Positions 18,426-26,528 of a stretch of 64,000 nucleotides of DNA are shown here, one piece after another. The first letter of the stretch is position 1. Every line of letters starts with the position of its first letter. A program made the translations under genes and the position numbers. Below the pieces are notes generated by a model that was given only the letters and a program-made list of their open reading frames with translations, ran no database searches and was not told where the DNA came from. Source of the stretch: Pseudomonadota bacterium (GTDB lineage: Bacteria > Pseudomonadota > Gammaproteobacteria > Burkholderiales > Rhodocyclaceae); NCBI GenBank assembly GCA_018241665.1, contig JAFEDK010000016.1, forward strand, positions 35,061-99,060, written 5' to 3'.

Positions 18426-20618
18426 ATGAGCAAACACGCGATTCGTGCGCTTTCGCTGGTGGTTTTCGTGGTGGTCGGTGTGTTGCTGGTGCTGTGGTCC
18501 AGCCAGCGCGGGGAGCGGCCGGAGGCTTCCGGCGGTGTGGCGGGGGGCGCCGCCAGGGCCGCGGCCAGCGACGTGCGCGAGCTGCGCCTCGGATTGAACA
18601 TTGCCGCCGGTAGCGCGCTGCACGCGGCGGCCGTGCGTTTCGCCGAGCGGGTCGGTGAGCAGAGCAAGGGCCGGCTGAAGGTTACGGTATTCCCCGACCA
18701 GCAGCTGGGCAGCGATGACCAGATGCTCGAGATGGCGCGCAGCGGCAAGCTCGATCTGGTGCTGACGCCTACTGCCAAGCTCAGCTCGGCGATCCCCGCG
18801 ATGCAGTACGCCGACCTGCCGTTCTATTTCACCAGCCGTGAAGAACTCTACGCGATGCTCGACGGTGAGCCGGGCCGCATGCTGCTGTCCAAGCTCAACG
18901 GGATCGACCTGGTCGGCCTGGCCTTCTGGGAGAACGGCTTCAAGCAGTTCACCGCCAATACGCCGATCCGCCGTCCGGAAGATTTTGCGAAGCTGCGCAT
19001 CCGCACGATGAAGAGCCGGATCATCGCCGACCAGTTCGAGGTGCTTGGCGCGCAGGCCATTCCGATCGATTTCCACGCGACCTACAAGGCACTGGCCGAT
19101 GGCGCGGTGGATGGCGAGGAAAACCCGCTGGTGGCCATCGTCGGGATGCGTTTCCACGAGGTGCAGAAGCACCTGACCGTCAGCAACCATGCCTACTTGG
19201 CCTATGTGTTCTCGGTCAGCAAGGCGGTCTTCGAGTCCTTGTCTCCCGAGCTGCGCGAAGTCATCCTGCGTAGCGCCCAGGAACTCACCGTGTGGGAGCG
19301 CCAGGAGACCTTCCGTCGCGAGACGCAGTTCATCGAAACCGTCCGCGCTGCCGGGGTGGAGATCCATACCCTGACGTCGGACGAGCGCGGGGCTTTCCGC
19401 AAGGCCCTGGCGCCGATCGCCGACAAGTTCGGCTTCGAGGTCGGCTACGACCTGCTGGTGAAGACCGAGGAGCTGCGCTATCAGCGGGAGGAGGCGGCCC
19501 AGGCCGCCAACCCTGGCCGCCGGCCGGCGGCGCTGGTGCTGGGTGTCGATGCGGATTTCTCGATGCGTAGTGCGCAGGGCGGCGGCGCCATTTACCGGGG
19601 CGTTCAGCTGGCCGCGGAGGAGATCAACGCCGACGGGGGCGTCCGGGGCGTGCCGCTGCGGGTGATCGGGCTCGATCACGCCACCAATTCCCTGGTCGGG
19701 CGCAAGAACCTCGAGCGCTTCGCTGCGATGCCGTCCATGCTGGGGGTGGTCGGGGGCGTCCAGACGGCGGTGATCGCCGACGAGCTGGATGACATCCATC
19801 GTTTGCAGATCCCCTTCCTGATCCCGTGGGGAACCGGGCGTGGCCTGGTCGAGCATGGCCATCGGCCGAACTACACCTTCCGGGTGTCGGTCAGTGACAC
19901 GCTGGCAGCACCGTTCCTGCTGGAGCGCGCGTTGCGTGGCGGCGGACGGGTTGTCGTGCTGCTCGAGCGCTCCGCCTGGGGGCGCAGCAATGACGAGGTG
20001 CTCAGGCCGGTCATTGAGCGCTTGCCGGCCGGCCGGGTCGAGATCGAGTGGTTCAACGTCGGCGATGCCGGCACTGAAGCCAAGCTGCGCGCCATCGGCG
20101 GCGGCAATGCCGCGGCACTGGTGCTGGTGGCCAATGCCGTCGAAAGCCAGAAGATTGTGCAGATGCTGGCACGCCAGGACAAGCCGTTGCCGGTATTCGC
20201 CCACGTGGGGCTGACCAGCGGCAACTTCTGGCAGACCACCCAGGCGGCCCTGCAGCGCGTGGACCTGCGTTTCGTGCAGTCCATCCTGATGGATGATGCG
20301 GCGACGCACCCGCGCTTCCGGAAGTTCCTCCTGCGTTACCGGGAACGCTATGGCCTCGGCCGGGACGAGATGGTGCCGTCGCTGATCGCCACCGTGCATG
20401 CCTACGAGCTGACCCACATGCTGGCCCGGGCGGCCCGCCAGGTGCGGCCCGACGATCACGCGGCGGTGCGCGGCGCGCTGGAAGCGCTGGGGGCCTACCC
20501 GGGCGTGCTGCGTGATTACAACCCGCCTTTCACCGCGGATCGTCACGATGCGCTTGAGCGCGGACAACTGCGCCTGGCGCGTTTCGACGCCCGCGGCCGG
20601 ATCGTGATTGCAGAATGA
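18426..20618 (+). CDS. Membrane-anchored tandem substrate-binding protein (TRAP DctP domain fused to ABC Peripla_BP_6 domain)
   Basis: The 730-residue protein starts with a transmembrane or signal-anchor helix (residues 7-25). A complete TRAP-type DctP-like domain follows (about 52-345; [20 protein letters not shown], the [15 protein letters not shown] region, and the DGEENPL loop). A branched-chain-amino-acid-type ABC binding domain occupies about 366-725 ([32 protein letters not shown]). No TRAP or ABC permease is nearby. The stop codon overlaps the ATG of the hybrid kinase (ATGA at 20615-20618). A sensing role, presenting ligands to the kinase as TorT does for TorS, is therefore more likely than transport. 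The frame is continuous through both domains. Confidence 0.85.
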
Positions 20619-24804: not shown

Positions 24805-26528
24805 AGATGGGCATCGCCGTCCGCCTGGGCCTCGCGCTGGCCATCGTCGGCGTGCTGGCGGCGGGGCTGACCGGCTATTACGGCTATGCCGAAAGCCGCG
24901 CCATGCTGGTGGCGGCGGCGGAGGAGCGCCTGCTCACCTCCACGCGGGTGCTGGTGCGCCAGCTGGCGGTCGGGCTCGAAAACACCGCCCGGGATGTGCG
25001 CCTGATTGCCGGCCACCCCCAGGCGGTACGCCTGTTGCGGCGCGACGACCCGGCGCTGCAGGCGGGCAGCGAGAAGAACGCCGCGCTGCTTTTCCAGCGC
25101 ATGCTGGAGACCCATCCCGAGTACTTCCAGATGCGTCTGATCGATGCGGCCGACCACGGCGTCGAGCGCATCCGTGTGGACCGGGATGCTGATGAGGTGG
25201 TCCGTGTCGAGGAGGGCGAACTGCAGGAAAAGGGCCATTACCCCTATGTCTTCGAGACGCTGCGCCTGCCGCCCGGCGCGGTGTTCATCTCCCGGGCCGG
25301 CATCAACCATGAGGTTGGCGCCCACGCCGGGCAGGACAAACCGTCCTTGCAGGTAGCGGCCCCGGTGCGCGAGACGCCTGACGGCCCGGCACTCGGGCTG
25401 GTGGTGATCAATGTCGATCTGAACGGCCTGTTCGCCCAGTTGGCCGCCGATCTGCCCGCCGGCCAGCAGCTCTATCTGGCCAATGGAGACGGCGATTTCC
25501 TGATCCATCCCGATCCGTACCAGGCCTTCGCCTTCGACCGCGGGCAGCTGGCCCGTGTGCAGGATCAGTTTCCCGCTGCCGAGCCGCTGCTGGCAGAGGG
25601 GGCGGCAGCGTCCGGACAGCTGGTGACGACATCACGGCCGGCGGGGCAGGAGGCCGTCGTGGCCGCCTTCATGCGCCAGCACTTCACGACGCTGCACAGT
25701 GAGGACGATTTCATCCTCGGCCTGTCCCAGCCCCTCGCGGCGGTGGTGGAGCAGAGTGAGCGCCTCGGGGCGGCGACCCTGCGCATCGTGCTGGGCTTCA
25801 GCGCGTTGGCCGTGCTGCTGGCCTTCCTGCTGGCGCGGGCGCTGACCCGTCCGCTCAACCAGATCGTGGAGGCAGTGCGGGGCTTTGTGCCGGGGGCGGC
25901 CGGGCAGCGTCTGCCGAGCCGGCGGCGGGACGAGATCGGCGTGCTGGCGCGCACCATCGAGGACATGCAGCAGCAGATCCGCGCCCAGTTCGACAGCCTG
26001 GAGGACAAGCAGCGGGCCCTCGACCGCCTGGCCAGCCATGACAGCCTGACCGGGCTGCCGAACCGGCGGTTGTTCCTCGACCGGCTCGACCAGGCCCTGG
26101 CCCATGCGCGACGCAACAATGGGCAGCTGGCCCTGCTGTTCATCGACCTGGACAACTTCAAGACCATCAACGACAGCCTGGGGCACGCGGCTGGCGATGC
26201 GGTGCTGTGCGCTGCCGCGGTGCGCCTGCAGCAACTGGTGCGGGCCAGTGATACCGTTGCGCGCCTGGGGGGAGACGAGTTCATCATCCTGCTGGATGGC
26301 GCCGACGATCCCGAGGCCATCGCCCAGATCGCCGGTAAGGCACTGGATGCCCTGGCCCAGCCCGTCATGCACATGGGCGAAGCCCTGCTTTCCGGCGGCA
26401 GCATCGGCGTATCCCGCTATCCCTACGATGCGACCGGCGCCACCGAACTCATCGCCGTCGCCGACAAGGCCATGTACCGGGCCAAGAGCGGCGGCCGCCA
26501 GCGGGCCTGCTTCGCGGACCTGGCCTGA
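24801..26528 (+). CDS. Membrane diguanylate cyclase with periplasmic Cache sensor
   Basis: The 575-residue protein has a TM helix at about 6-24, a double-Cache-like periplasmic region to about 320, and a second TM helix at about 326-346. A HAMP segment (RPLNQIVEAV) follows, then a GGDEF domain. The active motif is GGDEF at residues 490-494. The inhibitory I-site RASD at 481-484 is five residues ahead, so it should be an active and product-inhibited cyclase. There is no EAL domain. Translation is coupled to the PotD-like gene. Its frame is open far upstream (from 24228), but that part overlaps the binding-protein gene. Confidence 0.92.
   Translation: MKMGIAVRLGLALAIVGVLAAGLTGYYGYAESRAMLVAAAEERLLTSTRVLVRQLAVGLENTARDVRLIAGHPQAVRLLRRDDPALQAGSEKNAALLFQRMLETHPEYFQMRLIDAADHGVERIRVDRDADEVVRVEEGELQEKGHYPYVFETLRLPPGAVFISRAGINHEVGAHAGQDKPSLQVAAPVRETPDGPALGLVVINVDLNGLFAQLAADLPAGQQLYLANGDGDFLIHPDPYQAFAFDRGQLARVQDQFPAAEPLLAEGAAASGQLVTTSRPAGQEAVVAAFMRQHFTTLHSEDDFILGLSQPLAAVVEQSERLGAATLRIVLGFSALAVLLAFLLARALTRPLNQIVEAVRGFVPGAAGQRLPSRRRDEIGVLARTIEDMQQQIRAQFDSLEDKQRALDRLASHDSLTGLPNRRLFLDRLDQALAHARRNNGQLALLFIDLDNFKTINDSLGHAAGDAVLCAAAVRLQQLVRASDTVARLGGDEFIILLDGADDPEAIAQIAGKALDALAQPVMHMGEALLSGGSIGVSRYPYDATGATELIAVADKAMYRAKSGGRQRACFADLA

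Follow-up and report, generated by a model that had tools for sequence, protein, structure and literature searches.

LuxP, the binding protein of the Vibrio autoinducer 2 (AI-2) receptor LuxP–LuxQ, has one binding domain. A survey of solute-binding protein (SBP) repertoires names at least 13 SBP families and describes SBP binding as activating kinases and cyclic di-GMP (c-di-GMP) enzymes, among others; the words 'tandem' and 'fused' are absent from its main text (PMC9602780). In NspS–MbaA of V. cholerae and S. meliloti, the gene for a PotD-like protein is described as overlapping that for a membrane c-di-GMP enzyme (PMC9993111, PMC8967002), and DctB of Bacillus subtilis has been called a membrane co-receptor, needed for sensing by the kinase DctS (PMC6978683). 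Here we analyse four consecutive plus-strand genes, A, B, C and D, in a 64,000-nucleotide stretch (the window) of a 5.4-Mb Zoogloea genome. These genes probably encode two adjacent but separate SBP-triggered receptors, A–B signalling through a phosphorelay and C–D signalling directly. SBP-triggered receptors are already known, but the examples compared have a single binding domain for each partner, in contrast to the heterotypic tandem of A–B.

Two gene pairs and their separate distributions

A (18426–20618, 730 aa) is a tandem SBP comprising a DctP domain (residues 59–335, E = 1.4e-81) and a Peripla_BP_6 domain (376–697, E = 1e-22). B (20615–23629, 1004 aa) is a receptor hybrid histidine kinase with a sensor (1–335), HisKA (355–419), HATPase_c (466–581), two Response_reg (REC) stretches and Hpt (913–997); its relay motifs are SHEIRTP at 363, further motifs at 653 and 790, and AHSLKG at 945. 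C (23725–24804) matches the PotD/PotF-like SBP family SBP_bac_8. D (24801–26528, 575 aa) has an HK_sensor_dom_bact/Cache-like periplasmic sensor, HAMP (343–395) and GGDEF (411–568), with RxxD and the GGDEF active site at 481–494. PF02743 (dCache_1) scores under the Pfam cut-off in both B and D. The stop codon of A overlaps the start codon of B in an ATGA at 20615–20618, and the same arrangement joins C to D at 24801–24804. The frame of C is open from a GTG at 23677, but the more probable start codon is the ATG at 23725, since alignments with the closest relatives of C begin at residue 16 or 17 of the 375 aa; the B–C gap would therefore be about 95 bp, with B and C not coupled. The original prediction, made from the sequence alone, had listed these same-strand genes with their domains, relay and two overlaps, and this observation is borne out. 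It had also pointed to binding domains without a permease or ATPase, and indeed no transporter permease or ABC ATPase family is found in proteins A–D and no transporter family in the ten flanking open reading frames (ORFs) at 12868–32067, three of which match no family. Neither a sigma-70-like promoter within 17900–27000 nor a terminator-like site between B and C was found, both being weak evidence.

Scanning 84,980 species, each represented by one genome, with a sequence pattern gave 65 loci, a lower bound. The tandem protein, whole or cut, is present at 37 of these (L044–L079 and L107), among them L075, where the contig runs out with only the DctP half visible and which is included on account of 73% identity; at the remaining 28 loci the match is confined to the DctP half. 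Our simple ORF calling chose antisense frames at GC-rich loci, L047, L119 and L120 among them, and L047 was judged by tblastn. By their record titles, the tandem loci come from Beta- and Gammaproteobacteria, Magnetococcales, SAR324, deltaproteobacterial metagenome-assembled genomes (MAGs) and Sulfuricurvum, as well as from MAGs labelled Alpha- and Zetaproteobacteria. The sensor half of B (20615–21619 in the window) is encoded by the next same-strand gene after A at all 34 tandem loci where a next gene is visible, as judged by tblastn at L047 and L054 and from a weak match at L079 (25% identity, profile E = 8.4e-12); the remaining three (L057, L075 and L077) end right after A. A–B therefore shows the stable linkage between an SBP gene and a periplasmic-sensor receptor that marks an SBP-dependent membrane receptor.

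Among 60 related genomes, A and the B sensor have strong matches in the same seven. Four more of the 60 have weak B sensor matches (E = 1.6e-14 to 6.9e-12), two of which belong to the sister form described below, while the other two (G002 and G029), together with a second match in G037, are confined to the final third of the model. Across a phylum-wide sample of 398 genomes, 28, our own included, match A at E = 1e-70 or better, two of them in the second half only and two partially. Distances for the halves of A and for the B sensor correlate at 0.93–0.97 over 496 pairs, a value that shared ancestry alone also gives and that we do not use as evidence. Two genomes that already hold one tandem-plus-sensor pair contain a second, divergent one (L150 and L151, in G432 and G415).

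A sister form occurs at four loci (L043, L147, L148 and L149), where a single Peripla_BP_6 protein lacking DctP has a related sensor as its neighbour (profile E = 7.5e-9 to 3.7e-14; at L043, tblastn and translation served to judge the binding protein). Of these stretches, three (L043, L147 and L148) contain a GGDEF or HD-GYP gene, on the other strand at L148. The simplest history of A–B would be the addition of DctP to an older Peripla_BP_6–receptor pair.

The C–D pair is distributed differently. A search with the sensor half of D found matches in 21 of 149 related genomes, and the 11 strongest all encode C directly upstream: the window, three genomes of its genus and seven further genera within its family. 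At the sites other than the window, the C relatives are 51–83% identical to C. C is rare, with a match in 2 of 274 genomes across the class (E = 1e-25) and in 8 of 80 relatives (E = 1e-18), in both cases with our own genome included. In G029, G033 and G039, relatives that share about 50% identity with C lack a neighbouring Cache-GGDEF protein, and C-type proteins therefore also stand without D. In one relative of D (L162), with a frame of about 837 aa, the distance between sensor and GGDEF is greater, which suggests an inserted domain.

Both pairs are conserved well outside the genus and are therefore more than chance arrangements. The original prediction had instead joined all four genes in one multi-ligand system, with the three binding domains feeding a joint phosphorelay and c-di-GMP output. 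The common direction and short gaps in the window and at L044, L045 and L047 agree with such a system, as does the plausible effect of both receptors on c-di-GMP. However, C accompanies A–B only at those three loci, which are close relatives of the window; 27 of the 30 tandem loci with at least 4.5 kb after A lack it, it is seen at none of the seven shorter ones, and it has no genome-wide match at E = 1e-18 in the A-bearing Zoogloea genomes Z. oleivorans (G018), G010 and G012. Conversely, within the few hundred bases upstream of C that were searched for the end of B, none was found in any of the seven further genera, A–B elsewhere in those genomes lying outside that search. The B–C gap of about 95 bp also counts against a single unit. 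Dispersal in relatives, which the prediction had named as telling against it, is thus seen at the level of pairs: A–B and C–D are each kept and the joint set is rare. We reject the single four-gene system as the main reading and consider it improbable.

The tandem binding protein and the two receptors

A starts with a hydrophobic helix (residues 5–25) followed by a low-confidence linker, and is probably tethered to the membrane. Its DctP half is the best-conserved portion, with 54–62% identity to the window protein against 28–39% for the second half at the 14 most distant loci compared. R193, which we take to occupy the place of the substrate arginine of tripartite ATP-independent periplasmic (TRAP) transporters, is kept in 35 of 36 alignment rows. 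The second half best matches amino-acid and aromatic-acid binders, where a LuxPQ-type receptor would bind AI-2 through LuxP. No chain spanning both halves is among the 50 matches listed, which is no proof that such a chain is unsolved, and in searches of open-access PMC text no title or abstract in the matches listed describes a DctP–Peripla_BP_6 tandem.

The sensor half of B is predicted by AlphaFold2 to adopt a double-Cache fold (pLDDT 85.6), a tandem Cache/PAS fold of the kind expected of a LuxPQ-type sensor. This half is the portion kept across the partners of A in our alignments, and the output behind it is swapped: a hybrid histidine kinase in the window, a histidine kinase with a single REC in Methylobacter (L048), a PAS-containing hybrid kinase in Magnetococcales (L064), a multi-PAS histidine kinase (L074), and GGDEF-EAL without a kinase domain in Sulfuricurvum (L078). 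This is the pattern expected if the partner of A is the sensor and not the kinase, and A–B would let one ask how kinases and c-di-GMP enzymes re-use one input.

We propose that A is a signalling and not a transport protein, whose DctP half (for a carboxylate-type ligand) and Peripla_BP_6 half (for an amino-acid or aromatic-acid type ligand) would contact the dCache-like sensor of B and report their state to it. B would then run a His-Asp-Asp-His phosphorelay, the final target of which is not encoded beside it: no response regulator adjoins B in the window. The layout resembles that of LuxP–LuxQ, but A has two binding domains from different classes and, in Sulfuricurvum, the sensor family of B is joined to GGDEF-EAL. 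In 5ERE, an extracellular ligand-binding receptor of Desulfohalobium retbaense (Dret_0059), both binding and sensor parts would share one chain, whereas in the window they are separate proteins and a DctP domain is present in addition. DctB, presumably a DctP-family protein, works in B. subtilis with the transporter DctA as well as DctS; A differs in its second binding domain and in having no transporter family in the ten flanking ORFs.

It is conceivable, though we advance it tentatively, that A is a dedicated dual-ligand co-receptor, in which two domains of unrelated classes within one rigid tethered protein act jointly on one dCache receptor and register the coincidence or ratio of a carboxylate and an amino-acid-type compound. 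The unit would have arisen by adding a transport-free DctP to the older Peripla_BP_6–receptor pair and spread between phyla as a plug-in c-di-GMP input. A–B would then let one ask how one sensor integrates two periplasmic ligands. Alternatively, the DctP half could be a ligand-free structural or docking module, leaving the Peripla_BP_6 half alone to sense. The higher conservation of the DctP half is what an interface would show, and single Peripla_BP_6-plus-sensor pairs do exist without DctP, but such conservation fits a fixed ligand too and R193 is almost invariably retained, making this alternative doubtful.

For C–D, we suggest a mechanism like that of NspS–MbaA, in which the PotD-like protein would contact the Cache-HAMP-GGDEF cyclase and control it directly. 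The layout is the same, a PotD-like SBP gene overlapping the gene for a membrane c-di-GMP enzyme. MbaA, however, is a GGDEF-EAL protein and D has GGDEF only, and C retains the PotD pocket only in part: on the roles that we assume for the PotD contact residues, the W..Y and W.D positions are kept and the other contact positions are changed. The polyamines named in the original prediction would, for C, be no more than a guess at the level of the family. In P. aeruginosa, SBP_bac_8 proteins for which polyamine binding had been predicted are described as binding γ-aminobutyric acid (GABA) or 5-aminovalerate instead (PMC11113362). In G033, a C relative (51% identity) follows a same-strand sCache chemoreceptor gene after 96 bp (L133:6711–9494), possibly a chemotaxis version of the C pairing.

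Transport and signalling

TRAP transporters combine a DctQM permease with a DctP protein. We searched for the permease subunit DctM in 36 of the 37 tandem genomes, leaving out L059, and eight have no match. In all eight, a DctP match falls in a frame of the length of the tandem protein, and five (G357, G364, G380, G381 and G387) have no other DctP match. One of these five, Methylomonas methanica R-45363 (L055, G364), is a labelled strain; the other DctM-free genomes are labelled MAGs. Cognate TRAP permeases elsewhere, which the original prediction had set against a signalling role, accordingly do not turn up for A in these eight genomes, and its claims of signalling instead of transport by A, of a phosphorelay link and of an association with c-di-GMP enzymes are supported.

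A and C might nevertheless load permeases encoded elsewhere, with the adjoining receptors merely regulating uptake. The window genome holds two DctM and five DctP matches, and an uptake part for A may therefore remain there; both DctM matches lie on another contig than A, and one (C22:97903) has no DctP match within the surrounding 12 kb. The DctM-free genomes, above all M. methanica with the tandem protein as its sole DctP match, argue against this explanation, which we regard as very unlikely. We reject a transport role for A in genomes lacking a DctM match, less firmly for its Peripla_BP_6 half, and the case for A–B as a signalling-only pair is strong. If this is correct, a conserved heterotypic tandem without a TRAP permease would show a DctP domain working purely as a signal receptor.

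Elsewhere in the window genome, L118 (G000:C54:220000–232000) carries a stand-alone DctP gene transcribed divergently from the gene for a PAS sensor kinase, and its contig has no DctM; this DctP and the DctM at C22:97903 may belong together.

Cyclic di-GMP proteins around A–B

An HD-GYP, GGDEF or EAL domain lies near or within the unit at 18 of the 37 tandem loci, compared with 2 of the 28 single-DctP loci (Fisher p = 3.3e-4, a guide only, because taxa are unmatched, rows are related and the c-di-GMP layouts are not independent events). The comparison covers the same strand from 1.5 kb before to 8.2 kb after the start of A. The profiles were home-made from 11 tandem-locus neighbours or partners plus D, rows that match by construction; the same profiles were applied to the control loci (L080–L106 and L108), which come from other taxa. 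HD-GYP is encoded directly upstream at L050, L053, L057 and L075 (with REC by Pfam) and at L052 (cut, by profile only), and REC-HD-GYP downstream at L063, L064, L066, L067 and L073. The other layouts are REC-GAF-GGDEF (L072 and L074), PAS-GGDEF-EAL (L059 by Pfam; GGDEF and EAL by profile only at L054), the fused GGDEF-EAL of L078, and the C–D pair itself (L044, L045 and L047). For a number of relatives, the likely relay target of B is the REC-HD-GYP or REC-GAF-GGDEF protein encoded next to it. In the window and its three close relatives, the two pairs would have become neighbours such that both could bear on c-di-GMP, possibly with cross-talk. Zoogloea forms flocs, and A–B and C–D name candidate nutrient inputs to aggregation.

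Several observations weigh against two SBP-triggered receptors with A–B devoted to signalling. The double-Cache fold is common to many sensors that bind ligands directly, and such sensors rank above LuxQ among the matches to the B sensor model. Against the link to c-di-GMP, no such domain is present at 19 of the 37 tandem loci, some of whose contigs end early, and L061, L065, L070 and L107 instead have a REC protein with kinase domains after B. DctM is present in 28 of the 36 tandem genomes. BPD_transp_2 permeases occur in six of the eight DctM-free genomes, with none in G357 and G387, and a Liv-type role for the second half of A is therefore less strongly excluded.

Two further features lie on the minus strand of the window. 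A hybrid histidine kinase with HisKA, HATPase and REC is encoded at 13319–15250, about 3 kb upstream of A, and a further Peripla_BP_6-like frame, which shares 26% identity with the second half of A, is found at 52848–53891.
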